Virus record (IMG/VR): IMGVR_UViG_3300017771_000141
Span: 1 to 21,331 of that record
From: a virus
Length of the DNA: 21,331 nt
Strand: one strand, 5' to 3'
This document shows, piece after piece, positions 5,363 to 21,185 of the stretch (the first letter of the stretch is position 1; each line of letters starts with the position of its first letter). Both the position numbers and the translations under genes were made by a program. The notes below the pieces were generated by a model. It did not search any database, was not told the DNA's origin, and saw only the letters and a list, made by a program, of their open reading frames with translations.

Positions 5363-5363
5363 T

Positions 5364-6897: not shown

Positions 6898-8223
6898 ATG
6901 TCAAGTAATTATTCAGATAGACTTAAATTAGAGTTAATGGCAACAGGTGCCAACGCTAATACTTGGGGCACAAATACTAATAATAACTTAGATGTAATTG
7001 ACGCTTTCGTGTCAGGTTATCTTTCAAAGTCAGTTGCAGGATCAGCTAACATTACACTTTCTACAGCAAATGCTTCAGATACAGCAGAATCATCAAATAG
7101 AACAATAGAATTAACAGGTGCCTTAACAGGCGACATTGTTGTATTTATTCCTGCCGCAGAAAGTAAATATTCTTTTTTTAACAATACATCAGGTTCTCAA
7201 ACTCTAACAATTGCAGCAACAGGGCATACTGCAAATGGTATTGCTATTGCTCAAGGTGCAAAAACCACAGTGTTCTGTGATGGTGCATCAAACTTTAACG
7301 TAGAAATTCTTTCTTCCACAGATGCAGGAGCATTAGGCTCAGGTACTTTAGCAGATGCTAGATTTCCTGCAACCTTACCAGCAGTAAGTGGAGCAAATTT
7401 AACAAATTTAGACGCAGCAGATTTAGCATCAGGAACAATTCCTGACGCAAGATTTCCTGCAACCTTACCAGCACTTAATGGATCTGCACTTACAAATTTA
7501 GATGGAGATGACATTGCAACAGGAACAGTAGCAATCGATAGATTACCTACAATAACAACTGCTAAGGGTGGTACAGGATTAACTTCACTAGGATCAGCAG
7601 GACAAGTTCTTAGCGTTACAGCACCAGGTGCGGCTTTAGAATTTGCTGATGCAGGTGGTGGAGCAGTAGGTAACGTAACATCTATAACCCAACTTACAGG
7701 ATCAGGTAATATTTCGACTAGAGCAGATACTTTATTTGCTATCGCAATTGCTGTTGGTGGTGGCGGATCAGGTGGCTGTGGTGGACACGGTTTTGGTCAA
7801 GGGCAAGGACAGCCCGGTGGTTCAACTTCAGGGTTGGGCATGACAGGTGCCGCAGGATCACAAGGTGCCGCAGGTTTTCCAAATCCAGGATCAAACGGTG
7901 GAGCAGGTGGATCAGGTGGTGGTATGCTAGGTGGTGCTCCAGGAAATAATGGCTCTCCAGGTATCGGTGGTAATAGTGGTGGATCAGGAGGAACAAATCC
8001 TTTCTCTCCATTAGGCAACGGTGGAACAGGTGATCCAGGATCTAGTGAGAATGGTGGTGGTGGTGGAGCAGGTGGTGCTTTCAGTGATATCACAGGACCT
8101 TTCACAAGGGGTGCAACAGTTTCAGTAACAGTAGGAGCAGGTGGTATTGGCAGACCAGGAAATAGAGGATCAGGTCAACCGGGAACTGCAGGAATGTTTA
8201 GATATGCGGAGTATTATACATAA
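6898..8223 (+). CDS. Tail fibre with glycine-rich receptor-binding tip (441 aa)
   Basis: GAGG at 6887-6890 lies seven bases before the ATG. The N-terminal part has LKLELMATGANANTWGTNTN (about residues 9-28), a widespread marine phage tail-protein start, followed by a beta-rich region (SSNRTIELTGAL, VFIPAAESKYSFFNNTSGSQ). Residues 151-210 are a 30-residue tandem duplication. TTAKGGTGLTSLGSAGQVLS at about 220-239 is a common fibre shaft element. Residues 286-430 are glycine-rich with one cysteine near 294, ending in VSVTVGAGG-G. This resembles the Gly-rich domain at phage fibre tips, where polyglycine loops contact the receptor. It probably decides host binding. The stop forms TAATG with the chaperone gene. 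Confidence 0.82.
   Translation: MSSNYSDRLKLELMATGANANTWGTNTNNNLDVIDAFVSGYLSKSVAGSANITLSTANASDTAESSNRTIELTGALTGDIVVFIPAAESKYSFFNNTSGSQTLTIAATGHTANGIAIAQGAKTTVFCDGASNFNVEILSSTDAGALGSGTLADARFPATLPAVSGANLTNLDAADLASGTIPDARFPATLPALNGSALTNLDGDDIATGTVAIDRLPTITTAKGGTGLTSLGSAGQVLSVTAPGAALEFADAGGGAVGNVTSITQLTGSGNISTRADTLFAIAIAVGGGGSGGCGGHGFGQGQGQPGGSTSGLGMTGAAGSQGAAGFPNPGSNGGAGGSGGGMLGGAPGNNGSPGIGGNSGGSGGTNPFSPLGNGGTGDPGSSENGGGGGAGGAFSDITGPFTRGATVSVTVGAGGIGRPGNRGSGQPGTAGMFRYAEYYT
7348..7527 (+). repeat. Tandem 90-bp repeat in tail fibre gene
   Basis: Residues 151-180 and 181-210 of the fibre are two copies of a DARFPATLPA-(V/L)xGxxLTNLDxxD-(L/I)A(S/T)GT unit. The DNA copies are 7348-7437 and 7438-7527 and share the stretch GATTTCCTGCAACCTTACCA. 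This suggests shaft growth by duplication. Confidence 0.8.
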
Positions 8224-8570
8224 TGGCTAAGTGGTGTAAGATTAATGATATTAAAGTAGTAGAAGTTTCTGACACAGAGGTTGTAGGTTGGCATGAAACA
8301 ACAAATGACAGTGTTGTACAGGGTTGGTGGTTTCAAAATGGTGATGTTGCTAACTCATATACTTATGGCATCGATGATTTAAGAAAAGCTAGAGACTTAG
8401 AATTATCAGCTTGTGATTGGACACAATTAGCTGACTCACCTTTAACAGATTCAAAGAAAGCAGAATGGGCAACATATAGACAGGCATTGAGAGATTTTCC
8501 TGCAAGTAACACAACATTTACTGTAACCTTAGATGGTTCAGATACAGCATGGCCTACTAAACCTTCCTAG
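8223..8570 (+). CDS. Phage tail assembly chaperone-like protein
   Basis: The C-terminal half, RKARDLELSACDWTQLADSP followed by LT-SKKAEWATYRQALRDFP (about residues 55-96), is the signature of the Phage_tail_APC (tail assembly chaperone) family. That family is commonly encoded just after fibre genes and assists fibre folding or attachment. The N-terminal half is a small beta-rich domain (KWCKINDIKVVEVSDTEVVG). Length (115 residues) and position after the fibre agree. The start overlaps the fibre stop as TAATG, and its own TAG overlaps the GTG start of the first oxygenase as TAGTG. Translation could therefore flow from fibre to chaperone to oxygenase. Confidence 0.8.
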   Translation: MAKWCKINDIKVVEVSDTEVVGWHETTNDSVVQGWWFQNGDVANSYTYGIDDLRKARDLELSACDWTQLADSPLTDSKKAEWATYRQALRDFPASNTTFTVTLDGSDTAWPTKPS

Positions 8571-9178
8571 TGTTTTTAGAAAATAATTATTGGTTCTACG
8601 ACAGAGCACTTAATCCAAAAGTGTGCCAACAAATAATTCAGTATGGTAATTCTTTAAAAGAAAATGTCGGTGTTACATCTGATACAAGTGAAGGCACTGA
8701 GGAAAATAAACAGAAATTAGCAAAAATTAGAGATTCTAGAATAGCTTGGATTCCACAACTAAGATGGCTTAATATTTGGTTTTGGAATTGTGCTATGGAT
8801 GCAAACAAATTTGCAGATTGGAATTTCAATATTGATACATCCGAACAGTATCAATTTACAAAATATAAAGAAGGTCATTTTTATGGTTGGCATCAAGATT
8901 GTGGACCTGATACCATTGGAGATGGTTTACAAAGAAAATTATCTTTAGTTTGCACGTTAACTGACTCTTCTGAGTATGAAGGTGGACAATTAGAAATATG
9001 TAATCCACAAATGTCTCCCATTAAAAAGTTGGAAGATAAAACAGATAGTGAAGAAAAATGGTTTAATCAAGGAACTATAATTGTTTTTCCTAGTCATATG
9101 TGGCATCAAGTAAAAAAAGTCACTCAGGGGACTAGATATTCTTTAGTAACATGGTTTAGAGGAAAGGATTTTGAATGA
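8570..9178 (+). CDS. 2OG-Fe(II) oxygenase, PKHD/PiuC-type (oxygenase 1)
   Basis: A dioxygenase that should couple decarboxylation of 2-oxoglutarate to hydroxylation of a substrate. The double-stranded beta-helix iron site is complete: H108-x-D110 in FYGWHQDCG, distal H179 in FPSHMWHQV, and R189 in TRYSLVTWFRG for 2-oxoglutarate. GTIIVFPSHMWHQVKKVTQG is a classical PKHD-type block, as in PiuC/YbiX proteins. At 202 residues it is a near-full-length single domain. Start GTG 8570 overlaps the chaperone stop, and the stop overlaps the next ATG as ATGA. The substrate is unknown. Adjacency to fibre and chaperone makes the fibre one candidate, by inference only. Confidence 0.9.
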   Translation: MFLENNYWFYDRALNPKVCQQIIQYGNSLKENVGVTSDTSEGTEENKQKLAKIRDSRIAWIPQLRWLNIWFWNCAMDANKFADWNFNIDTSEQYQFTKYKEGHFYGWHQDCGPDTIGDGLQRKLSLVCTLTDSSEYEGGQLEICNPQMSPIKKLEDKTDSEEKWFNQGTIIVFPSHMWHQVKKVTQGTRYSLVTWFRGKDFE

Positions 9179-9828
9179 GCAAATTTGAACAAGATAATTA
9201 CATTATAATAAACAAAGCTATTAGTGAGGAGATAGCTAGTTTTGTATGTGAATATTTTAATATGAAAATGAAAGTCACAGCAAAAATGTTTGAGAGTGGA
9301 ATGATATCACCTTATGAGGAAAACTACGGAGTGTTTGATGATGGCCAAGTTCCAGGTGCTTTTTCTGCTTATGCAGATATAGCCATGGAAGTTTTACTCA
9401 ACGCCTTACATCCTTTAATGGAAAAAGAAACAGGTATTAAATTAACACCTAATTATTCTTATGCTCGTGTGTATTTAAAAGGTCAAAAATTACCAAGGCA
9501 TAAAGACAGATTTGCATGTGAAATATCTACCACTCTTAATTTAGGGGGAGATTCATGGCCAATTTATTTAGAGCCTGATGAAACAAAGGGCACAGATGAT
9601 GGTACTAAATATATTTCTGAAGATACTAAAGGTATTAAGGTAGATTTAGGACCTGGTGATATGTTGATATATAAAGGCAACTTATTAGAGCATTGGAGAG
9701 AGCCTTTAGAAGGAGACAGGTGCTCACAAGTATTTCTTCATTATAATAGAGCTGATCAAAAAGAACCACCATTTGATGGAAGAGATTTTTTAGGTTTACC
9801 AAGTTGTTTCGTATTAGGCAAAAAATAA
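9175..9828 (+). CDS. 2OG-Fe(II) oxygenase (oxygenase 2)
   Basis: The iron ligands are H109-x-D111 in LPRHKDRFACE and distal H173 in LLEHWREPL. A basic residue for 2-oxoglutarate is probably R175 or R182 in the WREPLEGDRCSQVFLHYN block. LNLGGDSWPIYLEPDE and LGPGDMLIYKGNLLEHWRE are characteristic of a group of small oxygenases common in cyanophages and marine bacteria. No extra domain is present in the 217 residues. GGAAAGG about 7 bases upstream and the ATGA overlap with oxygenase 1 fix the start. The sequence is clearly divergent from oxygenase 1, so the pair is not a recent duplication. The substrate is unknown. Confidence 0.88.
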   Translation: MSKFEQDNYIIINKAISEEIASFVCEYFNMKMKVTAKMFESGMISPYEENYGVFDDGQVPGAFSAYADIAMEVLLNALHPLMEKETGIKLTPNYSYARVYLKGQKLPRHKDRFACEISTTLNLGGDSWPIYLEPDETKGTDDGTKYISEDTKGIKVDLGPGDMLIYKGNLLEHWREPLEGDRCSQVFLHYNRADQKEPPFDGRDFLGLPSCFVLGKK

Positions 9829-10511
9829 AATTTTATAGTAAGCATTTTTCTCTTTTAGAAAAACCTATACCTTCCAAGAAGAAAGTGCCTCTGTGGTATA
9901 AGAAAATGCAAAATTTTCCAATGGGTAAAAAAGAAAGTGGATCTGTTAAAAGATGTGTTCCTTTTTTGGATGCTCTGACATCAGGATATTATATTGTAAA
10001 CAACTTTGAAGTATTAATAACATGGCGTGAACCTGGTGTTTTAGATATAAGATACAATCAAAATTTAGAAAAAGGAGAGGCTTATGAACTTGACTCAGGT
10101 ATTAAAACTCATTTGGCTTGGCAAGTGAATGATGATTTTTATAATGACAATGAAATAAAACATCCTTTAAAATTTGATAATCCGTGGAGAATAGAAACTC
10201 CTAAGGGATATAGTTGTATGTTTTTGAACCCTCCAAATAATCCATCACCTTTTAGATTAGCAGAAGGTGTTGTTGATACAGATCAATACAAAATGAATAT
10301 TAATTTTCCCTTCCTTTTAAAAGGATTTGAAAAAGAAGTATCAATACCTGTTGGCTTACCTATAGTATGGGTAGTGCCTTTTAAAAGAGAGTCATGGCAA
10401 ATGGAGACACATGATCATGATTTAGAATCAAAGGATTATCATACAAATTTTTTTAAAGAGTTTGCTGATAATTATAGAAATAAAATATGGAGTAAAAAAG
10501 AATATGATTAA
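9804..10511 (+). CDS. DUF6065-like protein (235 aa)
   Basis: The order of motifs is PIPSKKKVPLWYKKM, CVPFLDALTSGYYI (about residues 51-64), FDNPWRIETPKGYSCMFLNP (about 123-142), GVVDTDQYKMNINFPF and IPVGLPIVWVVPFKRESW. This recalls DUF6065-type proteins, whose core reads PWI-TPPGW, then a VETDW block and a GEPF-P block. The family call is from memory. No metal triad is obvious, and the fold could be a jelly roll. The frame's first start is TTG 9804, overlapping oxygenase 2 by 25 bases with no ribosome site, so the true start is uncertain. It sits between an oxygenase and a glycosyltransferase, which hints at a role in the same modification pathway. Confidence 0.65.
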   Translation: MFRIRQKIKFYSKHFSLLEKPIPSKKKVPLWYKKMQNFPMGKKESGSVKRCVPFLDALTSGYYIVNNFEVLITWREPGVLDIRYNQNLEKGEAYELDSGIKTHLAWQVNDDFYNDNEIKHPLKFDNPWRIETPKGYSCMFLNPPNNPSPFRLAEGVVDTDQYKMNINFPFLLKGFEKEVSIPVGLPIVWVVPFKRESWQMETHDHDLESKDYHTNFFKEFADNYRNKIWSKKEYD

Positions 10512-11325
10512 ACCTGAAGAACTAAAAGAAAAAAACTTTAAAATATTTTTAGGAATGCCTATGTATGGTGGAATGTTATCTGAAGCTACATTACACGGTT
10601 TATTGGAACTACAACAATGGTCGATGTCAAAAGAAAAAGATGTTCAAATGAGAATACAGACCATGGGTAATGAAAGCTTAATAACTAGAGCAAGAAATAC
10701 ACTTGTGTCAATGATGATGGATGCACAAGATTATGTTGCAACTCATTTACTTTTTATAGATGCAGATATTGGATTTAATTGGAGAAATGTTGAGAGACTG
10801 ATTTGTGCTGATAAAGACATTGCTTGTGGAGTATATCCTAGAAAACATTTACATTTGGAAAAGGCTAGTAAATGGATTCAAGAAGATCCTAATATAAGTC
10901 CTGATGACCTAGAGGCTAGAATACTAGGTTATAATATTAACTTTGATGATCCTAAAAATATAAGAGGAGAGAATGGATTTTTCAAAGTACAAGAAGCCGC
11001 TACAGGAATGATGTTAGTAAAAAGAGAAGTCATAAGAAAAATGATGAAAGCTTATCCTGAGAGAAAGTATGAGTCTGATCAAATTGTAAACGGTGGCTCT
11101 TATAAGTCAGATAATTGTTATGATTTGTTTGCAGTTGGTCCTTACGAAACTTTAGGTCAAAAAAGATACTTATCAGAGGACTATTACTTTTCGAGATTAT
11201 GGCAAGAACTTGGTGGAGAAATTTGGGCAGATTTAGCAAGTCCATTAACTCATTTTGGAAATAGAGCATTTAAAGGGCATGTTGGTACTTTAGTAGCAAA
11301 AGCAGATGATCAAAATAATAAATAA
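10504..11325 (+). CDS. GT-A-type glycosyltransferase-like protein
   Basis: ATG 10504, with GGAG at 10489-10492, is preferred to an upstream start at 10462 that would lie deep in the previous gene. Residues 58-66 (SLITRARNT) and HLLFIDADIGF, with D86-x-D88, form the nucleotide-sugar and metal-binding DxD element of a GT-A fold. AATGMMLVKREVI (about 165-177) and YLSEDYYFSRLWQELGGEIW, with E225-D226, then ASPLTHFG with H250, follow as in acceptor-side and metal-binding parts of phage GT-A enzymes. The product is 273 residues, soluble, with no membrane anchor. It should transfer a sugar from a nucleotide sugar. The acceptor could be a hydroxyl made by a neighbouring oxygenase, a fibre residue or a base; none is proven. 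Confidence 0.75.
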   Translation: MIKPEELKEKNFKIFLGMPMYGGMLSEATLHGLLELQQWSMSKEKDVQMRIQTMGNESLITRARNTLVSMMMDAQDYVATHLLFIDADIGFNWRNVERLICADKDIACGVYPRKHLHLEKASKWIQEDPNISPDDLEARILGYNINFDDPKNIRGENGFFKVQEAATGMMLVKREVIRKMMKAYPERKYESDQIVNGGSYKSDNCYDLFAVGPYETLGQKRYLSEDYYFSRLWQELGGEIWADLASPLTHFGNRAFKGHVGTLVAKADDQNNK

Positions 11326-11815
11326 TTTTTTTAGTGTATACAGTAGAGATTACTATTTATTTGCAAAACAACTTACTTTTCATGAGTCATCGGATTATAA
11401 AAATCTCATGGGATTTACTAGTAAGTATGTAGATTTTCCAGGGAGAAGAACTTTACAGCTAAGCAAAGAGTCACCTTTTTTTTATCTAAATATTGTAAAC
11501 AATGTTTATGATAAGTTTGGCATAAAGTTAGATGATCAAGCAGGAGTATATTGTCATGTTAGATTTCAAGATGATAGAGATGATTGGATACACACTGATA
11601 GAGGAAAAACAATATTAGTATTTTTATCTGAAACTAATTTAGAGTCAGGAACGTGTTTTTTTGATAATAATGAGAATCTTACTGATAATATAAGTTTTAT
11701 ACACAATAGAGCTGTAATGTTTGATGGTAACATAAAACACATGTCAAAAAAAAATTATGGATCTTCGGTAGAAGATGGAAGAATGACAATTAATATATTT
11801 ATTGAAAATGCTTAA
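11306..11815 (+). CDS. 2OG-Fe(II) oxygenase (oxygenase 3)
   Basis: Ligands H96-x-D98 (DWIHTDRGKT), distal H145 (GNIKHMSKKN) and R159 (EDGRMTINIF) complete the 2-oxoglutarate/iron site in a 169-residue single domain. ILVFLSETNLESGTCFF is a typical strand-loop-strand of the superfamily, and the NRAVMFDGNIKH block precedes the distal histidine as expected. The ATG overlaps the glycosyltransferase stop by 20 bases, so the two are probably translated together. The arrangement resembles oxygenases I know from cyanophages and DUF6445-type proteins. The substrate is unknown. Confidence 0.88.
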   Translation: MIKIINNFFSVYSRDYYLFAKQLTFHESSDYKNLMGFTSKYVDFPGRRTLQLSKESPFFYLNIVNNVYDKFGIKLDDQAGVYCHVRFQDDRDDWIHTDRGKTILVFLSETNLESGTCFFDNNENLTDNISFIHNRAVMFDGNIKHMSKKNYGSSVEDGRMTINIFIENA

Positions 11816-12347
11816 TTCTATCAAAGAAGGATCTATATTATTAAAGCCACAATTTTTACCGTTAGAGGTTTACAACTCCACACTTAATTTATTCAATAAT
11901 AATAAATTTTATGCAACATACCAACCTACAGAAATATTCTATGGCAATAGATTACAGGCATATCCTTGTTATCAATATGTACTTAAAGAAAATGAAAATA
12001 TAATATTTGAAAAATTGTTATCTGATTATTTAGACACCCCTGTTGATGTCTTAACTATTGCAAGAAAGATTGTAACATCAGAAATACAACAATCAAAATG
12101 CAACACAAAATATGGGTACATACATCAGGATTCTCATTGTGATTTAGCAGCAGTATTACCTTTTGATCAAACAATAGATGGAGGAACAGCTTTCTTTGAA
12201 AATATTTGGGATAAGTATCCTGACATAACCGTGGGAGCGTATCCCAATAGACTTGTTATATACAACTCACAAAGACCTCATGCACCATCACATGATTTCA
12301 CATTTGTAGAAAGAAAGGTTTTAGCCTTTATGATAAAGGTAAAATGA
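11808..12347 (+). CDS. 2OG-Fe(II) oxygenase, DUF6445-like (oxygenase 4)
   Basis: I chose ATG 11808 over an in-frame TTG at 11802; the start overlaps the previous stop by eight bases. Ligands are H106-x-D108 (YGYIHQDSHCDLAAVLPF), distal H158 (SQRPHAPSH) and R169 in VERKVLAFM. HQDSHCDLAAVL, then GGTAFFEN and YPNRLVIYNSQRPH, match DUF6445 proteins as I remember them; in proteobacteria those occur near tryptophan-halogenase-like and cupin genes. A halogenase and cupin-like genes are present about 6-9 kb downstream, so the association may be meaningful. The stop overlaps the next ATG as ATGA. The product is 179 residues with an unknown substrate. Confidence 0.85.
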   Translation: MLNSIKEGSILLKPQFLPLEVYNSTLNLFNNNKFYATYQPTEIFYGNRLQAYPCYQYVLKENENIIFEKLLSDYLDTPVDVLTIARKIVTSEIQQSKCNTKYGYIHQDSHCDLAAVLPFDQTIDGGTAFFENIWDKYPDITVGAYPNRLVIYNSQRPHAPSHDFTFVERKVLAFMIKVK

Positions 12348-12895
12348 AACTAGAAGTAATACAGTTTTCAATTCATAGTTTATATTCTGCCTATATTATA
12401 AGAGATTATTTATCTCAAGAAGAGTTGTACAAACTTGATAAGGTCCTTAGAGATAAAACAAAAATAGATGAGATGAATAAGTCTACCAATGTAAAAGGTA
12501 ATATGACCTCTTATTCTGCTTTACAGGACGTACAAGAGTGTGCAGATCTGATTAGCAAAGCAATCTTTACTATTGATTCAATAGTTAAATTAAGAAGTTC
12601 TCATGGAAGAGATAGCTTCATATATCGTGTGACTGATGCTTGGGGAATGAGACACAATACAAATGATTATTCTATAAATCATGCTCATTATCCGTCTCAT
12701 TGGTCTGCTGCTTTCTATACCACTGTGCCTGATCCTAAACCTATCATGAAGCTTATTGAATTTAATGATAAAGTGGAGCTAGACAATAATATGTTAGTTA
12801 TATTTCCTGCTATGGTAAATCACGAGGTATCTATTAATAAATCTGATAAAGAAAGAATATCAATGGCTTTCAACATTGATGTGGAAAAACAATAA
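12344..12895 (+). CDS. 2OG-Fe(II) oxygenase-like, HxH variant (oxygenase 5)
   Basis: This resembles the PF13759/TIGR02466 branch of 2OG-Fe(II) oxygenases. RVTDAWGMR (about 95-103) is the strand that reads SW in relatives. NHAHYPSHWSAAFYTTVPDP carries H113-x-H115 followed by Y-P, and the C-terminal block LVIFPAMVNHEVSINKSDKE plus RISMAFN has distal H160 and R171. The usual acidic ligand (HxD) is replaced by His, as in other members of this branch here. At 183 residues it is one domain. It is coupled to oxygenase 4 by ATGA and ends the first oxygenase run; a 20-base gap separates it from the hub gene. Activity and substrate are unproven. Confidence 0.78.
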   Translation: MKLEVIQFSIHSLYSAYIIRDYLSQEELYKLDKVLRDKTKIDEMNKSTNVKGNMTSYSALQDVQECADLISKAIFTIDSIVKLRSSHGRDSFIYRVTDAWGMRHNTNDYSINHAHYPSHWSAAFYTTVPDPKPIMKLIEFNDKVELDNNMLVIFPAMVNHEVSINKSDKERISMAFNIDVEKQ

Positions 12896-12915
12896 AACTG
12901 TAGTATATTAGACAA

Positions 12916-14742
12916 ATGCCCCTAGTAAATTTTAGACCAGCCGCAGGTATTAATAAAGAAGTCACCGATTATACAGGTGCAGGTAAGTGGACTGATGGCG
13001 ATATGGTTAGGTTTTTTCAAGGATTACCACAGAAAATAAAAGGTTGGGAAAAATTTATATCTACAACTCTTGTTGGTGTGGCAAGAGATCAACACTCTTG
13101 GGTAGCATTAGATGGCACAAGGTATAATGCCATAGGAACAGACAGAAAATTATATGTAATAGAAGAGGGTAGTGCATTTGATATTACTCCTTTAAGAAGA
13201 ACACAGGCTCGTACAAATCCTTTTACTACCAATGCCACAACTTCAGTTGTTGTTACTGATACAGGTCATGGTGCTTCAAAAGGTGATTTTGTTACCTTTG
13301 ACAGTTTTAGTGCAATAGATGGATTGGACATGAATAAAGAATTTGAAGTAACTTCTATTGTAAACACTGCGGCATATGTTGTAACTCATACAAGCACTGC
13401 TTCAGGATCCACTGCTTCAGGTGGTGGCACAGGAAATATGAAGTATCAAATAAACGTTGGTCCTTCTTTATCAACTTCAGCTTTCGGTTGGGGTACAGAT
13501 GGTTGGGGATCAGGTTCATGGGGTACACCCTCCACCACTTCAAACGTAACATTGGAGGCTAGACAGTGGTCACTAGATAATTTTGGTGAAGATTTAATAG
13601 CTACTGTTTTAAATGGTGGTGCTTTTAAATGGGATACTTCTTTAGGTGTATCAACAAGATGCACTGCAATCACTAATGCTCCAACAGCTTCTAGATTAAG
13701 TTTGATATCTACTCCTGATAGACATCTAATGTTTATGGGCACTCAGGCCACTATCGGAGCAGGAAATGCTCAAGATGATTTATTGATTAGATTTTCCGAT
13801 CAAGAAGATATTAACACGTATCAACCAACAGCAGAAAATACTGCTGGTTCTTTAAGAATAGCAGACGGATCACGAATAGTGGCCGCAGAAAGATCAAGAG
13901 GTCAGATACTCGTATGGACCGATACTTCTTTGCACTCTCTACAATTCATAGGTCCACCATTTACTTTTGGTTTAAGACAGTTAGGTCAAAACTGTGGTAT
14001 AGTCGGAAGTCATGCTGGTGTCGATATTAATGGTGTAAGCTATTGGATGTCACAAGACTCATTCTTCTTATTTGATGGTTCCGTTAAAAAATTACCGTGC
14101 ACCGTGGAACAATTTGTATTTGATAATTTAAATCAAACAGGAGCAGAAAATGCTTTTGCTGGACATAATGGTGAGTTTAATGAAATTATGTGGTTTTATC
14201 CTAGAACAGGATCCGATCAAATAAACGCTATTGTAGCCTATAATTATTTAGAGGGAACTTGGTGGACAGGAACATTGGCTAGAACAACTTGGACAGATAG
14301 AGAAGTTTATGATAGCCCTATAGCTACTGAATTTTTAGCTTCAACAACAGCTAACAATGAAGTTATTCTTGGACTAACAGCAGGAGCTACTCAATCATTT
14401 ATACATGAAACAGGTAATGACGCTGACGGTTCTGCAATCACTGCCTTTGTAAAATCAGGTGCAGTAGAAATAGGAACAGGAGATGAATTTTCTTTTGTAT
14501 CAAAATTAATTCCTGACATACAAAATCAAGAGGGAACTTTAAACGCAAAGTTAGAATTTAAAAACTATCCAAATAATAGCACAAGTGTTATAAAGACTGC
14601 TACCTTTACTGACAGCACAGAGTTTGTTAGTTTAAGAGGAAGAGGCAGAGAATTTACTGTTAATCTTGTGTCCAACACTACAGGCACAGCTTGGAGAGCA
14701 GGCACTCAAAGATTTGACATACAACCTGATGGTAGAAGATAA
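12916..14742 (+). CDS. P22 gp10-like tail hub / DNA stabilisation protein (608 aa)
   Basis: The N-terminus (NFRPAAGINKEVTDYTGAGK, then WTDGDMVRFFQGLPQKIKGW) is the hallmark of large phage virion proteins I associate with P22 gp10-type packaged-DNA stabilisation or tail hub proteins. The body is a string of beta-propeller-like blades (HSWVALDGTRYNAIGTDRKL, RGQILVWTDTSLHSLQFIGP, VDINGVSYWMSQDSFFLFDG). Residues 192, 197 and 202 form a W-x4-W-x4-W motif shared with the fibre-like protein at 4376. No enzyme motif is evident. There is no clear ribosome site before ATG 12916. The stop forms TAATG with the next gene. It returns the window to virion genes after five oxygenases. Confidence 0.7.
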   Translation: MPLVNFRPAAGINKEVTDYTGAGKWTDGDMVRFFQGLPQKIKGWEKFISTTLVGVARDQHSWVALDGTRYNAIGTDRKLYVIEEGSAFDITPLRRTQARTNPFTTNATTSVVVTDTGHGASKGDFVTFDSFSAIDGLDMNKEFEVTSIVNTAAYVVTHTSTASGSTASGGGTGNMKYQINVGPSLSTSAFGWGTDGWGSGSWGTPSTTSNVTLEARQWSLDNFGEDLIATVLNGGAFKWDTSLGVSTRCTAITNAPTASRLSLISTPDRHLMFMGTQATIGAGNAQDDLLIRFSDQEDINTYQPTAENTAGSLRIADGSRIVAAERSRGQILVWTDTSLHSLQFIGPPFTFGLRQLGQNCGIVGSHAGVDINGVSYWMSQDSFFLFDGSVKKLPCTVEQFVFDNLNQTGAENAFAGHNGEFNEIMWFYPRTGSDQINAIVAYNYLEGTWWTGTLARTTWTDREVYDSPIATEFLASTTANNEVILGLTAGATQSFIHETGNDADGSAITAFVKSGAVEIGTGDEFSFVSKLIPDIQNQEGTLNAKLEFKNYPNNSTSVIKTATFTDSTEFVSLRGRGREFTVNLVSNTTGTAWRAGTQRFDIQPDGRR

Positions 14743-14912
14743 TGGCTAAATTAATTATACAAAGATTTCCTGACCCAGGAGAGGAATATGAAAGACAACA
14801 ATTTTCAACTCTGATAAGACAATTGGAATTTATGATACAACAACTAAATAGTTCTTACACTAACGATACTCAAGAAGAGGCAACAAGAAGGGCATGGTTT
14901 TTAAGTGGCTGA
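14742..14912 (+). CDS. Small helical virion-region protein (56 aa)
   Basis: A 56-residue protein beginning MAKLIIQRFPDPGEEYERQQ, with a helical middle rich in Gln (LIRQLEFMIQQLNSSY) and ending EEATRRAWFLSG. It starts in TAATG overlap with the hub gene and its last 8 bases overlap the GTG start of the next gene, so it is clearly part of the structural unit. I recall the LNSSYTxDTxEEAxRRAWFL ending from small proteins next to tail genes in marine phages. The amphipathic helix may form a coiled coil. The function is unknown; a small tail or joint component is likely by position. Confidence 0.7.
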   Translation: MAKLIIQRFPDPGEEYERQQFSTLIRQLEFMIQQLNSSYTNDTQEEATRRAWFLSG

Positions 14913-15261
14913 CGTATTTAAAAGATTTATAACAAATGTAACTACAACAGATTTGACCACTGTGTTTACAGTCCCTGTGGCCAACGTTGCAGCATCACCA
15001 CCAACACCTGTTTCAACTTTTATTGTTAAAACAATTAATACTCATAATTATGATGGTAGTAATGCAGTAACCGTAAACTTTGATCACAACAATGGTAGTT
15101 CTGATTTACAAGTATTTCAGGTTGATGTGTCTGCCTCAGATACAAACACTATTAGCACAAGCATGGTATATCAGGAAGGTGACAGCATGAAGGTTCAAGC
15201 TAATGCTGCTTCTAGAGCCATGGTAGAAGTTTCCGTATTGGAGATTAAACAACAGCTATAA
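14905..15261 (+). CDS. Small beta-sandwich virion-type protein (118 aa)
   Basis: The frame opens with GTG 14905 (MADVFKRFITNVTTTDLTTV) within the end of the previous gene. The product is rich in Val, Thr, Asn and Ser with alternating hydrophobic strands (FIVKTINTHNYDGSNAVTVN, LQVFQVDVSASDTNTISTSM, MVEVSVLEIKQ). This predicts an all-beta sandwich such as a tail or decoration protein. There is no cysteine, signal peptide or catalytic motif. Its stop joins oxygenase 6 as TAATG. I recognise the general type from phage virion loci but no named family. Confidence 0.65.
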   Translation: MADVFKRFITNVTTTDLTTVFTVPVANVAASPPTPVSTFIVKTINTHNYDGSNAVTVNFDHNNGSSDLQVFQVDVSASDTNTISTSMVYQEGDSMKVQANAASRAMVEVSVLEIKQQL

Positions 15262-15755
15262 TGAGATTAATACAGGATGGCATGTTGGATAAATCAGCCT
15301 GTGATACATTAATTAATTTATATCAAGACAATAGGCCACTGACAAAATTGTGGCATAGCACAAATACATTAAATTTAGCACAAGTAGAAGATCAACACGA
15401 TCAGTTAGCTAAAAAAATAATATTTGGTATGACAACTTTTTTAAGCACAAAAGGAGCAGTAGCTTTTCCTGAACTTTGTCAAGTAGTTCATAGACCTGAA
15501 GGCACTTCACATGGTTTACACATGGATGATGCAAGAACTTCAACGGTAATGACATCCATAACATATCTTAACGATGATTATGAGGGTGGAGAAACATTTT
15601 TTGAAGATGGTCTTACAGTGGCACCTAAGCTAGGTAGGTCTTTGTTTTTTGATGGAAGAGCTTTCAGACATGGTGTAAACGAGATTAAAGGTAATAGATT
15701 TACATTGGCAATATGGTACGCATCTGACATAAACGACTTTTATGGAATTAGTTAA
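15261..15755 (+). CDS. 2OG-Fe(II) oxygenase, prolyl-4-hydroxylase-like (oxygenase 6)
   Basis: This has the clearest P4H-type signature in the window. H87-x-D89 lies in GLHMDDARTS, followed by ITYLNDDYEGGETFF (about 100-114), then VAPKLGRSLFFDGRAFRHGV with distal H137, and R146 in NRFTLAIWY. All iron and 2-oxoglutarate contacts are present. P4H-like phage proteins are usually supposed to hydroxylate peptides, but that is family inference; no proline-rich target is visible nearby except perhaps the Gly/Pro-containing fibre tip. The protein is 164 residues. It starts in TAATG overlap with the virion gene, and its end overlaps the next gene by 14 bases. Confidence 0.9.
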   Translation: MRLIQDGMLDKSACDTLINLYQDNRPLTKLWHSTNTLNLAQVEDQHDQLAKKIIFGMTTFLSTKGAVAFPELCQVVHRPEGTSHGLHMDDARTSTVMTSITYLNDDYEGGETFFEDGLTVAPKLGRSLFFDGRAFRHGVNEIKGNRFTLAIWYASDINDFYGIS

Positions 15756-16407
15756 ACCTTCACTTCCTAAAGCTATAGAAAAAAGAATTGTAGAGAAACA
15801 AGCTCTTAGTTATCAGTTTGTTACTTATCTACAGGATCTTATGAAGGCTATTATTAACAATGAGGACATTGTTAGATATCAGTTCTCTAAACTAGCCAAA
15901 TATAGAGTTTTAAAAATAAACGAAAAAGATGTTCTAGAAAAAGTAGCAGACAGATACAGGTGGCCTAGAGAGTATGAGGAAAAACAACCCTCAATGGAAG
16001 TTATAACCTTAAGTGGTAAGGTAATAAAAAGTGATTTTAAAGAAGATAACTTTGCTGATTCTTTTGAAAATACTTGTAGATACCTTGCAGGAGAGGAGTT
16101 GGTCCTACATCGCTGTCAGACTTTAACAAAAAATTTAACATTTGCCTGTAATCTTTTTTCATCAATACTAGGTAGAGATTTAAACTTTAGTGGATATCTT
16201 AGATTGGGCAGTAAACCAATAAAACCAACAAGTTTTTCTTACAAATACAACATTATAATAAAAAATGCTTATGGCCTTTTAAAATGTAGTTTAAATGGTA
16301 AGATAAAAATATTAAAAAAAGAAGGTGCTATCTTTGTTCGCAAAGGTACGAAAGTTAGAATAGAAGAAATTAAAGAACCAACGTTTTATATAATTTATCA
16401 TTTATGA
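15742..16407 (+). CDS. Degenerate JmjC/cupin-like protein lacking metal ligands
   Basis: No family is obvious at first sight. Residues about 110-218 line up by eye with the intact JmjC-like protein at 20577: a YLAGEELVLHRCQTLTKN block against YAINNVCFIQDCSRVNKR, then YNIIIKNAYGLLKCSLNGK against HNLIIQVEGKTNFTVKDE, then LKKEGAIFVRKGTKVRI against LEPGDCVFVPLGVYHQA. At the positions of the HxD pair this protein reads PTS, and at the distal His it reads Val, so the iron site seems lost. The N-terminal 80 residues are helical. A non-catalytic partner or scaffold role is possible. ATG 15742 overlaps oxygenase 6, and the stop overlaps the next ATG as ATGA. Confidence 0.55.
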   Translation: MELVKPSLPKAIEKRIVEKQALSYQFVTYLQDLMKAIINNEDIVRYQFSKLAKYRVLKINEKDVLEKVADRYRWPREYEEKQPSMEVITLSGKVIKSDFKEDNFADSFENTCRYLAGEELVLHRCQTLTKNLTFACNLFSSILGRDLNFSGYLRLGSKPIKPTSFSYKYNIIIKNAYGLLKCSLNGKIKILKKEGAIFVRKGTKVRIEEIKEPTFYIIYHL

Positions 16408-16922
16408 ATATTTTTAAGGCACAGATAAAAAAAGACATTATAGATCTTTCTCTAGACACAATACAAAATATGAAAAAGTCTATGAACGAAGTAAGTTGGA
16501 ATTGTGATATACGAACATCATACAATCTTACTGACAACATTTTAAATGTTAAAGAATTATGGCCATTAAAATTTTCTATTCTTGAAAGCATACACGAATA
16601 CATGCTTAATAATAATAAGTTCTTTGAAGGATTTATAAAAAAGTCTTGGGTTAATATATATGAAAAAGGTTTTTATCAAGAGTTTCACAATCATAAAGAC
16701 GAAATTGCAAAATATATTTGTGGTGTGGTTTATTTTACACCCATGTCAAGTTCAATAGAGTTTGGTATTGAAGAAAGAATAGAACATAAACCTGAAGTTG
16801 GTGATATTTTAATCTTTAATGATGATCAATTACACAGAGTTTTACCACACAAAGACAGTGATTTAAGAATAAGTTTAGCTTTTAATTATCAAAAGATAGA
16901 CACATGGAATGGACTTAAGTGA
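16404..16922 (+). CDS. 2OG-Fe(II) oxygenase-like, HxH variant (oxygenase 7)
   Basis: This belongs to the PF13759-like branch: SWVNIYEKGFYQEFHNHKDE (about 81-100) holds H95-x-H97, CGVVYFTP follows, and EVGDILIFNDDQLHRVLPHK carries distal H144, with R155 in LRISLAFN. The second ligand position is His rather than Asp; D99 and E100 just after could compensate but are out of register. The 10-residue spacing between H97 and the following Gly is three longer than in the relatives at 16919 and 20003. The gene is 172 residues, coupled by ATGA upstream and by GTGA downstream. The substrate is unknown. Confidence 0.8.
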   Translation: MNIFKAQIKKDIIDLSLDTIQNMKKSMNEVSWNCDIRTSYNLTDNILNVKELWPLKFSILESIHEYMLNNNKFFEGFIKKSWVNIYEKGFYQEFHNHKDEIAKYICGVVYFTPMSSSIEFGIEERIEHKPEVGDILIFNDDQLHRVLPHKDSDLRISLAFNYQKIDTWNGLK

Positions 16923-17533
16923 TAATAGAATCACATACATTACCGTTATTTCCAACAGTGGTTCAAAAGATAGTTGTTGACTATGATTTTAAAGAATTAA
17001 AAGAAACAGTTCAAAGCTTAGAATATAGAGACATAGAAACAGACTTACCTAATCCTCCTCAAGTATCACATGATTTTTATTTATTAGATAAGCATCAAAA
17101 AGAAAAGAGTTTGTTTAAGGACATATTTGATAGACACTATAAAGAAGATGTTTTTCAATATCACAGCACTGATTTTAAGATAACAACCTCTTGGTCCACC
17201 AAGACAGGTCAAGGAGCATACGGAGGTCATTATCATAGACATAAGAATTGTATGTTCTGTGGTGTTTTTTATTTTGATAATTTAAAGACTCCAATAATAT
17301 TTAACGGACAAAATATAATAGATGAGGATATATTGGTCAATGAACCTACCTCTTGGAATGTTTATAATTCAAGAGAAATAAAAATTTTTCCCACAGCTAA
17401 TACTTTGTATTTATTTCCTAGTTATTTACAGCACAGGATAGGAAAGAACGAAGAGGACCAAGTAAGATATTCTTTAGCATTTAATCTTTTTCCTGTAGGA
17501 GTTTTTGGTAAACTAGATTCGGAGTTAAAATGA
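16919..17533 (+). CDS. 2OG-Fe(II) oxygenase-like, HxH variant, TIGR02466-type (oxygenase 8)
   Basis: The N-terminal LPLFPTVVQKIVVDY is the usual start of TIGR02466 proteins (LFPTPV-like). The core has TSWSTKTGQGAYGGHYHRHK with H104, H106 and H108, then CGVFYFDN, and NTLYLFPSYLQHRIGKNEED with distal H172, R183 and the closing RYSLAFNLFPVGVFGK. Metal binding by histidines is likely, but no HxD exists. Its ending is shared with the 20003 protein (SLAFNxFxxGVxGKxD), so the two are paralogues. Start GTG 16919 is inside the previous stop (GTGA). The stop overlaps the halogenase ATG as ATGA, so it may be expressed in step with the halogenase. Confidence 0.82.
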   Translation: MIIESHTLPLFPTVVQKIVVDYDFKELKETVQSLEYRDIETDLPNPPQVSHDFYLLDKHQKEKSLFKDIFDRHYKEDVFQYHSTDFKITTSWSTKTGQGAYGGHYHRHKNCMFCGVFYFDNLKTPIIFNGQNIIDEDILVNEPTSWNVYNSREIKIFPTANTLYLFPSYLQHRIGKNEEDQVRYSLAFNLFPVGVFGKLDSELK

Positions 17534-19020
17534 AAATTTGTATACTAGGTGGTGGCACAGCAGGTTTTATGACTGCAGCAACATTGGTCAAATTATTTCC
17601 ACAACATGAGATAAAACTAATAGAGTCCCCTCAGGAAAAAACTGTCGGTGTTGGAGAGAGCACAATATTAGGTTTTAAGGCATGGCTTAATCTTTTAGAT
17701 ATTAAAGACGAAGACTTTATGAAGGATTGTAACGCAATTTACAAACTTAGTATAAAATTTACTGATTTTTATAAAAAAGGTGAGAGCTTTCATTATCCAT
17801 TTGGAGAACTTAAATATCCATTGGACGATTGGTGGCTATGTAAGATAGCTAATCCTGATTTACCCAACGATACTTATGCCTCTTATAACTATGAAGCTAT
17901 GACTCAAATAGAACAAGGCTTGATGTATGAACACTCTGATTTTAAAAATGAGACTGCTTATCATTTTGATGCAAAACTTTTTGCAGATTGGCTTAAAAAC
18001 AAATACTGCATACCTAAAGGATTGAAATATGTCTCTGAACATATCGAAGATATAAAACAAGATGATGATGGAATAAAATCACTAAATGGAAAACACGAGG
18101 CTGATCTATATATAGACTGTACAGGTTTTAAATCTATGTTACTTGGAGAAACTCTTAAGGAACCATTTGAATCCTATGAAGATTTACTACCAAATAATTC
18201 AGCTTGGGCAACTAGAATACCTTACAAAGACAAGGATAAAGAATTATTACCCTACACAAATTGCACTGCTTATAACAATGGATGGATATGGAATATACCT
18301 TTGTGGAATAGAATTGGTACAGGTTATGTTTATTCAGATAAGTTTACTAGTGATGAAGATGCACTGTCAGACTTTCACAATTATCTAGGCATAAAAACAG
18401 ATTTAGAATTTAACAAAATAAAAATGAGAGTAGGTATACACAAAAGACTTTTTGTAAAAAATGTATGTGCTGTTGGTTTGTCTGCTGGTTTTATTGAACC
18501 CTTGGAGAGCAATGGTTTATACACTGTTCATCAATTTTTAATTAAACTTGTAAGACAAATGCAAAGAGAAAAAATAAGTCAATGGGACAAAGACAATTAC
18601 ACATTCGGTTGTAAAAAAATATTTAAACCTTTTGCTGATTTTGTAGCTCTACATTACGCTTTATCTCATAGAACTGACACACCTTATTGGAAAGCTAATT
18701 TCAACAAAACTTGGGAGGAAAGATTATACACCCTAGAACCTACATCGGTCTATACGCTTCTTAATCACGCTTTTTTAAGAGACGAAAACTTCTCTTTTGA
18801 CACACAGGGTGGTGCACACTGTATAGCAACAGGTATGAATTGGAAACCAAATGATGAAAATATGGCAAAGCTACAGAACAATATACAGTTGAGTGAGATA
18901 GTAGACAAAGCAAAAGACGTATTAGGTGAATTACAAAACAGAAAAGAAAAATGGAAAGAGGAATGTGAAGAAGAGGGCGTGTCTTTTCATGACTTTCACA
19001 AACACAATGTTTATTACTAA
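17530..19020 (+). CDS. Flavin-dependent tryptophan-type halogenase
   Basis: The family uses FADH2, O2 and halide to make hypohalous acid, which is relayed through a tunnel to a lysine. The FAD box GGGTAGFMTAA (residues 7-17), VGVGESTILGF, catalytic-type K72 in the AIYKLSIKF segment, the halogenase signature WIWNIP at 252-257 followed by IGTGYVYS, and FIEPLES with E326-S327 are all present. C-terminal FVALHYALSHRTDTPYW is also typical. At 496 residues it is a little shorter than PrnA (538). GGAG just before ATG 17530, together with the ATGA junction, fixes the start. A flavin reductase is not encoded in the window and would have to come from elsewhere. Substrate and halide are unknown; a cyanophage relative, VirX1, is reported to iodinate. 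Confidence 0.93.
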   Translation: MKICILGGGTAGFMTAATLVKLFPQHEIKLIESPQEKTVGVGESTILGFKAWLNLLDIKDEDFMKDCNAIYKLSIKFTDFYKKGESFHYPFGELKYPLDDWWLCKIANPDLPNDTYASYNYEAMTQIEQGLMYEHSDFKNETAYHFDAKLFADWLKNKYCIPKGLKYVSEHIEDIKQDDDGIKSLNGKHEADLYIDCTGFKSMLLGETLKEPFESYEDLLPNNSAWATRIPYKDKDKELLPYTNCTAYNNGWIWNIPLWNRIGTGYVYSDKFTSDEDALSDFHNYLGIKTDLEFNKIKMRVGIHKRLFVKNVCAVGLSAGFIEPLESNGLYTVHQFLIKLVRQMQREKISQWDKDNYTFGCKKIFKPFADFVALHYALSHRTDTPYWKANFNKTWEERLYTLEPTSVYTLLNHAFLRDENFSFDTQGGAHCIATGMNWKPNDENMAKLQNNIQLSEIVDKAKDVLGELQNRKEKWKEECEEEGVSFHDFHKHNVYY

Positions 19021-19540
19021 AGATAATTTTTTATCAAAAGACAGCATTGATTTTATTGAAAATCAAATATTGAGCAGTTCTTTTCCATATTATTTTAATG
19101 CACATACAATACACGATCCACCTGATAACAACGCATATATGGGCCATGATATACTTAGAAGACCTGAGGAGAGAAATGAGGGGGAGACATTTAACTCCAA
19201 TTATGGAGAACAATTTTTAAAAATATTAAAAGAGTTTACAGACTTAATTAACTATAATCTTACAGATATATACAGGATATCAGTAAATATCACCTTTGCA
19301 GGAGCTACAGGGAATTGTCCTATACACATAGATCATCCTTATTCTCATCATCAGTTATTAGTATATTTAAATGACTGTGATCCTGTATCTAAGACTGTTG
19401 TTTTATCACAAGATAAATCAGAAGTTGAACATATAATATCACCAAAAAAATATATGGGAGCTTGTTTTAGTTCTGCACCACACTATATGATTTTTCCTAA
19501 AAAAGGAGCTAGGGCAGTAATTGTCTATACATTTAAATGA
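19007..19540 (+). CDS. 2OG-Fe(II) oxygenase (oxygenase 9)
   Basis: The open frame reaches back to 18926 within the halogenase, but ATG 19007 (MFITKDNFLSKDSIDFIENQ) begins where homologous folds begin; ATG 18989 is an alternative. Neither has a strong ribosome site. Ligands are H107-x-D109 in CPIHIDHPYSHHQLLVYLND, distal H159 in SSAPHYMIFPKKGAR and R169, so the site is complete. The halogenase overlap is 14 bases and the next gene joins as ATGA, placing this oxygenase directly in the halogenase operon. The protein is 177 residues with an unknown substrate. Related small oxygenases occur in cyanophages. Confidence 0.86.
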   Translation: MFITKDNFLSKDSIDFIENQILSSSFPYYFNAHTIHDPPDNNAYMGHDILRRPEERNEGETFNSNYGEQFLKILKEFTDLINYNLTDIYRISVNITFAGATGNCPIHIDHPYSHHQLLVYLNDCDPVSKTVVLSQDKSEVEHIISPKKYMGACFSSAPHYMIFPKKGARAVIVYTFK

Positions 19541-20010
19541 TTCAATTTGTAAATAATGTTTGGTATGGCGATGACACTTACAACTCAAATGAATTAAAAA
19601 AAATTTCACAAGAAATAAGAGAGGGGAATTGGCAATACAAAGGTAGCTCAGGAACAATTGGAGATGATAATAAGTTTTGGTATCAACCATTAACAGAGCA
19701 ACACACAAATTTTTTTAGAACCATAACAAATAATAAAGTTATAAGAGCTTATGCAAACGGTCAGACAATGACACAGCACAGTGGTTTTCACGCAGATGAT
19801 GGTGACATGACTTATTTGATATACGCAGATGAGTGGAGTTTAGCTGATGGTGGAGGTACTGAGTTTCTTCTTAATGACAATACCACTTGTAGCGTTTATC
19901 CTAAATTTAATAGAATAGTAAAGTTTAAAGCAGACATATCTCACAGAGCTTTACCTAATATAAAACAACATTCTTTTAGAATGACTATAGCGTTGAAGAC
20001 ACATGAGTGA
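19537..20010 (+). CDS. 2OG-Fe(II) oxygenase, P4H-like (oxygenase 10)
   Basis: H85-x-D87 lies in GFHADDGDMTYLIYADEW, followed by LADGGGTEFLL. The block YPKFNRIVKFKADISHRALP holds distal H136, and R148 sits in FRMTIALK. The order and spacing follow PF13640-type prolyl hydroxylase-like enzymes. At 157 residues it is the shortest oxygenase here, yet all contacts are present. It begins in ATGA overlap with oxygenase 9 and its last eight bases overlap the start of the next gene. The substrate is unknown. Confidence 0.88.
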   Translation: MIQFVNNVWYGDDTYNSNELKKISQEIREGNWQYKGSSGTIGDDNKFWYQPLTEQHTNFFRTITNNKVIRAYANGQTMTQHSGFHADDGDMTYLIYADEWSLADGGGTEFLLNDNTTCSVYPKFNRIVKFKADISHRALPNIKQHSFRMTIALKTHE

Positions 20011-20605
20011 AGTTATAAGTCTATTTCCTATAGCTATTAGCGTACATAATATTGACATTAATTTTTCTGATGAAGATAAAAAATTTATAAATCTATGTCT
20101 AAATGATCAATATGAAAACACAGGTAACACTACTTCATACGATACTTATGTTTTGGAAAAACTACCAAGCTTAAAAGAAAAATTAATGAGTAAAGTTAAT
20201 TTTCATTTTTATGAAACTTTGAAGCATGTCAAAGAAAGTGAAATATATATTACACAGTCTTGGTTAAATCTTACAAAGAAAGATCAATTTCATCACACAC
20301 ATAAGCATCCCAATTCTATTTTAGCAGGTGTATTTTATCTGCAAACAGTAGACGATGATTGTATTTCTTTTGATAACACATTAAGAGTAGATCAAGTTAG
20401 GCCATCAATTGAGTCTTTTAATTCTTGGAACTCTAGTTTGTATAATTTACCTGTTCATAAAAACATGTTAGTAATATTTCCATCTAGTTTAATGCACAAT
20501 GTGCCAACTGTAAAATCAGATCAAGTTAGAATTAGCCTAGCATTTAATACATTTGTGAAAGGAGTTTTAGGTAAAGATGATCAATTATCAAGAGTCAATT
20601 TGTAA
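20003..20605 (+). CDS. 2OG-Fe(II) oxygenase-like, HxH variant, TIGR02466-type (oxygenase 11)
   Basis: SLFPIAISVHNIDI at the start and TQSWLNLTKKDQFHHTHKHP (about 84-103), with H98, H100 and H102 before Pro, are textbook TIGR02466/PF13759 features. SILAGVFYLQT follows, then MLVIFPSSLMHNVPTVKSDQ with distal H165, and R176 in RISLAFNTFVKGVLGKDD. It is a paralogue of oxygenase 8 with the same C-terminal ending. Expected metal ligands are histidines, without an HxD. The ATG overlaps the previous stop by eight bases and the 3' end overlaps the JmjC-like gene by 29 bases. Confidence 0.83.
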   Translation: MSEVISLFPIAISVHNIDINFSDEDKKFINLCLNDQYENTGNTTSYDTYVLEKLPSLKEKLMSKVNFHFYETLKHVKESEIYITQSWLNLTKKDQFHHTHKHPNSILAGVFYLQTVDDDCISFDNTLRVDQVRPSIESFNSWNSSLYNLPVHKNMLVIFPSSLMHNVPTVKSDQVRISLAFNTFVKGVLGKDDQLSRVNL

Positions 20606-21185
20606 ACAAGTAGCTGAATTTAAACCTTTTGCTTATAAGAATAAAATAAATAATATTTTTTCTTGGGAGGAGTTAGCCTATATATTAAATACTCCACTAA
20701 GCACAGAAAAATTTCATGCAACAGGCATTGATTGTAAACCAACTGATGTGCCTTATGAGTGGCAAACTACTCCAAACATTATATCTCCCTCCAATATTTA
20801 CAATTATGCAATCAACAACGTGTGTTTCATACAAGATTGTAGTAGAGTAAATAAAAGAATTAACAAAATTGCTCATGATTTAGAATGGGCCACAGGTTAT
20901 TCATGTGATGCACATATCTTTTTTTCTGTTTTAGATAACGAAAAGGATACTGATGGCTTTGGTATGCATAAGGATGTATGTCACAATTTAATTATTCAAG
21001 TTGAGGGCAAAACTAATTTTACCGTCAAGGATGAGTTTGAAATAGTATTAGAACCAGGAGATTGTGTTTTTGTACCACTTGGCGTGTATCATCAAGCTAA
21101 ATCTATAGAAAAAAGACTCTCAGTTAGTTTTCCAATGAACCCTGAACATAAGACAAAACAAGACAGATTTTGGATTGATTTCTAG
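20577..21185 (+). CDS. JmjC/cupin-like 2OG-Fe(II) oxygenase (oxygenase 12)
   Basis: This is a JmjC-like or cupin_4-type (ROXA-related) protein. H131-x-D133 lies in GFGMHKDVCHNLIIQVEGKT, then IVLEPGDCVFVPLGVYHQAK carries distal H172; LSVSFPMNPE closes the barrel. Bacterial ROX enzymes of this type hydroxylate ribosomal proteins, and JmjC-like relatives also occur next to halogenases, so a protein target is a reasonable but unproven inference. N-terminal helices include IFSWEELAYILNTP. The product is 202 residues, shorter than ROXA, which carries an extra C-terminal domain. ATG 20577 overlaps the previous gene by 29 bases. This is the last oxygenase before the right-hand edge. Confidence 0.82.
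   Translation: MINYQESICKQVAEFKPFAYKNKINNIFSWEELAYILNTPLSTEKFHATGIDCKPTDVPYEWQTTPNIISPSNIYNYAINNVCFIQDCSRVNKRINKIAHDLEWATGYSCDAHIFFSVLDNEKDTDGFGMHKDVCHNLIIQVEGKTNFTVKDEFEIVLEPGDCVFVPLGVYHQAKSIEKRLSVSFPMNPEHKTKQDRFWIDF

Follow-up and report, generated by a model that had tools for sequence, protein, structure and literature searches.

What does a phage do with a halogenase gene that is packed among oxygenase genes, and do these genes work together? The question is raised by the 21,331-bp linear virus record IMGVR_UViG_3300017771_000141 of IMG/VR, the whole of which is called the window here. An open reading frame (ORF) on its + strand (17530-19020, 496 amino acids) encodes a flavin-dependent halogenase similar to VirX1 of cyanophage Syn10. 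It overlaps an ORF of the 2-oxoglutarate (2OG)-Fe(II) oxygenase kind on each side, and an initial annotation proposed that halogenation and hydroxylation act here on the same target. We believe that the ORF is probably a working halogenase of the viral VirX1 clade, carried as exchangeable cargo in a tailoring island that is rich in oxygenases and adjoins tail-fibre genes. The neighbouring oxygenases are members of the same functional island and not obligate partners.

The halogenase gene is real, and the enzyme it encodes appears intact, with the catalytic set kept and activity predicted. The ORF matched PF04820 with 343 bits (cut-off 21) and phrog_2928 ("tryptophan halogenase") with 476 bits, which places the homology far above chance. 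The nearest solved structure by sequence was VirX1 (6qgm, E 1.8e-99). The flavin adenine dinucleotide (FAD) motif GGGTAG is located at residues 7-12, and its glycines were unchanged in 60 aligned sequences comprising the window and viral relatives. The WxWxIP motif is present as WIWNIP at residues 252-257. In the same alignment K72 was Lys in 60/60 sequences and E326 was Glu in 59/60, the remaining one being an ambiguous X. The initial annotation had listed these four features as kept, and the motif positions and the alignment agree with it. Its gene boundaries were also confirmed by the ORF coordinates. The halogenase ATG at 17530 sits within an ATGA shared with the stop codon of the HxH oxygenase ORF at 16919-17533 (4-nt overlap), and the HxD oxygenase ORF at 19007-19540 begins with an ATG at 19007, 14 bases ahead of the end of the halogenase stop codon (14-nt overlap).

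Compared with relatives at 90% identity, the nonsynonymous substitution rate (dN) of the halogenase gene was 0.053-0.063 and the synonymous rate (dS) was 0.87-1.15, which is near saturation, giving a dN/dS of about 0.05-0.06 by the Nei-Gojobori method. The low dN relative to dS indicates strong purifying selection on the protein. A decaying or inactive passenger gene could account for the rarity of the halogenase among relatives (13/240 loci), but this explanation is very improbable given the purifying selection, the complete set of catalytic residues and the high-confidence fold.

The AlphaFold model of the halogenase had a mean predicted local distance difference test score (pLDDT) of 91.6 and a predicted template modelling score (pTM) of 0.91. 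Foldseek ranked VirX1 first, with a template modelling score of 0.92 on the query and 37% identity. In VIA-align, some tryptophan halogenases reached a slightly higher Z score (AbeH, 48.8) than VirX1 (46.1); VirX1 had the longest aligned length (490 residues) and the lowest root-mean-square deviation (1.9 A) among the top matches listed. VirX1 (PDB 6QGM) shares with the window the fold, the catalytic Lys and Glu, the WxWxIP, YPFG and GEST motifs and the absence of the tryptophan lid.

For residue comparison, the ORF was aligned to a PrnA-like protein of a Pseudomonas genome (L194, 538 amino acids), which carries the expected residues at PrnA numbering, and to other bacterial halogenases. PrnA K79 and E346 align to K72 and E326 of the window. 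The window has a gap at the segment that holds Y443 and Y444, as do 58/60 viral sequences and the two Syn10 halogenases; W455 is replaced by D424 and H101 by Y89. The tryptophan-binding set of PrnA (Y443, Y444, W455, H101) was not found in the window halogenase, and PrnA E450 aligns to a Glu that is not conserved across the viral set. PrnA, RebH, Thal and PyrH therefore share with the window the family, the fold (VIA Z 41-48), the FAD motif and the K79/E346 equivalents, but differ in the lid and at the W455 and H101 positions, and belong to a separate clade. The helical substrate lid (Thal 445-466 region) is missing by sequence alignment, as in VirX1. When VirX1 was compared with Thal, the absent lid was held responsible for the large pocket, the wide substrate range and iodination (PMC7948982; for the pocket and iodination also PMC8407142). 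Because the lid segment is missing and W455 and H101 are replaced, the ORF is VirX1-type by this signature. It is thus predicted from its residues to be a VirX1-type enzyme and not a free-tryptophan halogenase, and the database label "tryptophan halogenase" should not, on this prediction, be read as its substrate.

A FastTree phylogeny of 147 halogenases gave the same placement. One clade (47 rows, support 100) contains IMG/VR and isolate phage sequences, the window and VirX1 of Syn10, apart from the bacterial enzymes; long branches are easily joined, and details inside the clade are provisional. A second, small and divergent group of phage halogenases, with that of HTVC008M, falls outside the main clade. 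Two sequences from bacterial metagenome-assembled genomes (MAGs), L170 and L171, are included in the main viral clade. L171, a contig binned with a Dehalococcoidia MAG, has a phage structural gene, 2OG genes and the halogenase, and evidently comes from a phage. L170, from a Deltaproteobacteria MAG, carries a VirX1-clade halogenase (4977-6578, 49% identity) next to an AMP-binding enzyme, a methyltransferase and AcrB, and is apparently a cellular member of an otherwise viral clade. Tandem overlapping halogenase pairs were observed in L058, L068, L069, L071, L080, L081, L165 (Syn10) and L169 (P-TIM40). In L058, L068, L069 and L071, one halogenase of the pair comes from a much more divergent group.

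By analogy with the chemistry of the family, reduced flavin (FADH2) would be supplied by the host and would react with O2 to form the C4a-hydroperoxide. Attack of halide on this intermediate would yield hypohalous acid at the flavin. The acid would then move through an internal tunnel to K72, and the halogen would be delivered to the aromatic ring with the assistance of E326. The initial annotation had noted that the window holds no flavin reductase. The searches bore this out: no flavin reductase was detected with PF01613 in 12 IMG/VR records or with PF00175 and PF03358 in 12 records including three isolate phages, most of the contigs being fragments. VirX1 prefers iodide, then bromide. Without the tryptophan lid, the pocket for the aromatic ring would be open to solvent, and an open pocket suggests bulky aromatic substrates. 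We infer halogenase activity, the halide choice and, in place of free L-tryptophan, an aromatic substrate that is bulky or macromolecular.

The overlaps with both neighbours could mean that the three genes are translated together and serve a dedicated pathway with a single target. However, among the 17 successive seams between genes in the stretch 8223-21185, overlaps are missing only before 12916 and before 14905. Because nearly every island gene overlaps the next, the 4-nt and 14-nt overlaps of the halogenase are ordinary and general to the island. Gene overlaps in tightly packed phage genomes are no proof of pathway partnership.

Close relatives did not keep the two neighbours together with the halogenase. 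The upstream oxygenase gene (16919-17533) is a block of about 0.6 kb without counterpart in L004, L006, L007, L009 and the sister locus L085, where the halogenase begins right after the preceding gene or overlaps its end. L085 branches outside the other relatives, so the block seems to have been gained in the window's lineage, and the upstream oxygenase looks like an insertion specific to that lineage. Of the downstream oxygenase, L006 keeps the first codons alone. In more distant relatives, the halogenase is located beside other genes, including a second halogenase, and the conserved adjacency of the same partners that marks a fixed pathway was not observed. Both flanking oxygenases were inherited independently and are therefore not fixed partners of the halogenase, and a fixed partnership with them was rejected. 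The proposal of a gene coupled on both sides thus stands for the overlaps, for the position among 2OG oxygenases and for the clustering in phage genomes described below, but the three genes are not a conserved unit. The claim of one shared target was not supported, since the flanking genes vary among relatives and oxygenases are common without the halogenase; action on the same target is possible, on the ground of co-residence. JmjC/cupin and DUF6445 proteins, which had been expected beside proteobacterial homologues, were not confirmed in a small sample, in which one neighbour was a TonB-dependent receptor.

Control loci were picked by the structural gene and not by the halogenase, with 80 loci from each of three related phage clades. 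The halogenase was present in 13 of these 240 loci. Among halogenase-less loci with a complete upstream island, 2OG-type genes were found in 53/53, 40/48 and 9/11 by clade (102/112). In the window's clade, the mean number of 2OG-type genes was 3.75 per halogenase-less island, versus 5.0 in three halogenase islands. Since 2OG genes are abundant in islands that lack the halogenase, the oxygenases do not need it.

A looser clustering of halogenase and 2OG genes in phage genomes is real. In 17 isolate phages (T4-like cyanophages and HTVC008M), 49 2OG-family genes lay no more than 5 kb from 21 halogenase places where 17 were expected, a number that 0/20,000 random rotations reached. At least one 2OG gene was found within 5 kb of 16/21 halogenase places, versus 8.6 expected (P 0.0009, rotation test). 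These phages have large genomes with 2OG genes scattered across them, and positions were transcribed by hand; because the phages are related, the P values are optimistic. In environmental loci, adjacency of a 2OG gene to the halogenase occurred in 72/109 cases versus 55 under permuted order. The carbamoyltransferase (CarbT) and DUF6065 cargo genes had a 2OG-neighbour rate similar to that of the halogenase. The clustering and the adjacency fit a dedicated pathway, as the overlaps do, but the similar rate of other cargo, the differing neighbour families among relatives, the lineage-specific upstream and missing downstream oxygenases and the equal frequency of oxygenases without a halogenase make such a pathway improbable.

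An oxygenase subfamily tied to the halogenase was also sought. OG19007 was commoner in halogenase-bearing loci (10/17) than in halogenase-less ones (5/29, p 0.008), but it failed correction for 16 tests, is clade-confounded and was rejected. The glycosyltransferase-like GT10462 (10504-11325 in the window) occurred in 2/17 halogenase-bearing loci versus 29/29 halogenase-less loci of the window's clade, which is likewise clade-confounded. The window itself holds both OG19007 and GT10462.

The island and its borders are all encoded on the + strand. Upstream stand a NodU/Nol-like carbamoyltransferase (5364-6851; PF16861 170.9 bits, phrog_1601 440 bits) and the border genes for a tail fibre-like protein (6898-8223; phrog_12796, tail fiber) and a fibre-assembly-like protein (8223-8570; phrog_4912, tail fiber assembly). 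The fibre-like protein has a long glycine-rich C-terminal part, and we take it to resemble the glycine-rich phage adhesins. The first part of the island (8570-12895) encodes 2OG oxygenases, a DUF6065 protein and a glycosyltransferase-like protein. It is followed by a virion structural protein (12916-14742; phrog_3287, 274 bits), which is an island border in relatives. The second part contains 2OG-Fe(II) oxygenase family members at 15261-15755 (PF13640, 39.3 bits) and 16404-16922 (PF13759, 39 bits; this gene adjoins the halogenase upstream in close relatives), and between them a cargo gene of phrog_29157, a family with no function label (15742-16407). Downstream of the halogenase and the HxD oxygenase, it continues with a 2OG-Fe(II) oxygenase family member at 19537-20010 (PF13640 30.1 bits, phrog_274), an HxH member at 20003-20605 (PF13759 69.7 bits, phrog_81) and a JmjC/cupin-like oxygenase at 20577-21185 (PF08007 34.8 bits, PF13621 34 bits).

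The two flanking oxygenases differ in how well they fit the 2OG family. The downstream protein (19007-19540; phrog_274) has invariant H107-x-D109, H159 and R169, that is, the HxD...H triad with the Arg, on a double-stranded beta-helix fold. Its model (pLDDT 90.1) matched 6n1f and PHD2 in the PDB and is prolyl-hydroxylase-like. The label "DNA endonuclease V" that PHROG and GenBank give to phrog_274 is contradicted by this fold and by the HxD...H...R residues. In the upstream protein (16919-17533; PF13759 42.7 bits, above the cut-off; phrog_81), H106-x-H108, H172 and R183 are invariant in the family alignment; the HxD/E...H metal triad is replaced by HxH...H with the Arg kept. Compared by sequence with solved structures, it gave one weak unrelated match only (E 0.019, HIT hydrolase). 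The PF13759-kind proteins at 16919-17533, 20003-20605, 16404-16922 and 12344-12895 have HxH...H and the Arg, with three His versus the His-Asp-His of 2OG oxygenases. They are putative 2OG oxygenases. The protein at 9175-9828 has the H-x-D...H...R typical of 2OG oxygenases, though its family is labelled "ferrochelatase" (phrog_2954). Homologues with this label are HTVC023P gp67 and proteins of HTVC008M and 023Pt_psg01. Judging from these residues, the label may be incorrect; an iron-partner hypothesis in the literature has drawn on it. A sequence comparison of OG9175 with solved structures found no relative.

No formal search was made for a precursor gene of the ribosomally synthesized and post-translationally modified peptide (RiPP) kind beside the halogenase; the ORFs from 15261 to 21185 overlap gap-free and leave no coding-strand room for a separate precursor. 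A promoter scan gave 48 sites versus 40.9 in shuffled sequence and was not used. The site with the best score (14714-14743) reaches up to the non-coding gap that precedes 14905.

The island context suggests that several enzymes tailor a class of targets. The halogenase could instead be an auxiliary metabolic gene (AMG) that halogenates a small host aromatic, altering host metabolism or yielding a bioactive compound during infection. VirX1 accepted many small aromatics in vitro (PMC8407142), and cyanophage halogenases have been treated as AMGs (PMC10452541, PMC2984593). However, no biosynthetic genes are close by, the site is beside tail-fibre genes among protein-hydroxylase-like enzymes, and breadth on small substrates in vitro may be promiscuity. 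We regard such a metabolic role as possible, short of probable.

Tailoring of the virion or host surface would place the target in aromatic side chains of a phage adhesin or fibre, or in a host envelope molecule, with the oxygenases, the glycosyltransferase and the carbamoyltransferase working on the same target class. The position of the island between the fibre and fibre-assembly genes and the virion protein, the lidless pocket and the protein prolyl-hydroxylase-like fold of the downstream oxygenase are consistent with this. Halogenases that act on peptides exist, and one of them, MibH, was among the fold matches of the halogenase model. Yet in several isolate phages the halogenase is located away from the fibres (S-B64; HTVC008M, near the terminase), and fibre composition gave no signal. 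We regard surface tailoring, like the metabolic role, as possible, short of probable.

Several points weigh against this tailoring-island reading of the halogenase. The genes could cluster beside structural genes because insertions are tolerated there, with no substrate in common. The isolate phages and the loci are non-independent samples. The lid comparison is a sequence alignment and not a residue-level inspection of the model. Richness in Trp and Tyr, considered as a mark of the fibre as target, was rejected, since the fibre content was equal in halogenase-bearing and other loci. Fibre His content was lower in halogenase-bearing loci, a difference that is also clade-confounded.

The phage itself is, by gene similarity, a marine podovirus related to HTVC023P and HTVC027P, and a SAR11 host is plausible. 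A 43.8-kb relative contig, with a halogenase 90% identical, encodes a PolA-type DNA polymerase, a primase and a helicase. The nearest isolates of its polymerase were 023Pt_psg01 (53%) and pelagiphage HTVC023P (52%). The window's structural protein (12916-14742) was nearest to those of DSL-LC04, HTVC027P and others (40-45%). The polymerase and structural-protein matches together relate the phage to HTVC023P-type podoviruses. HTVC023P, HTVC027P and 023Pt_psg01 have the same island position and oxygenase families (OG8570, OG9175 and others), but no halogenase in the stretch examined. For phages of this type, co-located 2OG-oxygenase and "ferrochelatase" partner genes have been described, with halogenase not mentioned (Wittmers et al. 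2022, PMC9599517).

Viral halogenases have been known since cyanophage genomics (PMC3037559, PMC2984593). Downstream of the VirX1 gene, Syn10 has DUF6065 and several 2OG-type and cupin genes that belong to the window's families and are annotated as hypothetical, and the halogenase neighbourhood of P-TIM40 is similar. Syn10 is a 177-kb cyanomyovirus with tandem halogenases, whereas the window belongs to a podovirus lineage of about 40-kb scale with a single halogenase. In Synechococcus phage Sf-CH11 (PV340848), 2OG oxygenases stand directly on both sides of a halogenase of 48% identity, as in the window, but they are of other subfamilies, and the phage is a large T4-like one with a Synechococcus host. 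No statement that the VirX1 locus shares the window's companion families was found in the open-licence papers searched. What is new is a VirX1-type halogenase in the HTVC023P-type podovirus lineage; VirX1 and co-located 2OG oxygenases were known already.

A wider proposal, which we consider rather unlikely, is that VirX1-type halogenases, 2OG and cupin oxygenases, DUF6065 proteins, and glycosyl- and carbamoyltransferases form a swappable tailoring island in marine podoviruses and T4-like cyanophages that remodels a macromolecular target, for example the adhesin of the phage or the envelope of its host. If this were true, the halogenase would be the first viral enzyme known to halogenate proteins or surfaces. 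The recurrence of the island in two unrelated phage types and around the VirX1 gene narrows the natural-substrate question for viral halogenases. It shifts the focus beyond small aromatics, to phage and envelope macromolecules considered together with the oxygenases of the island.

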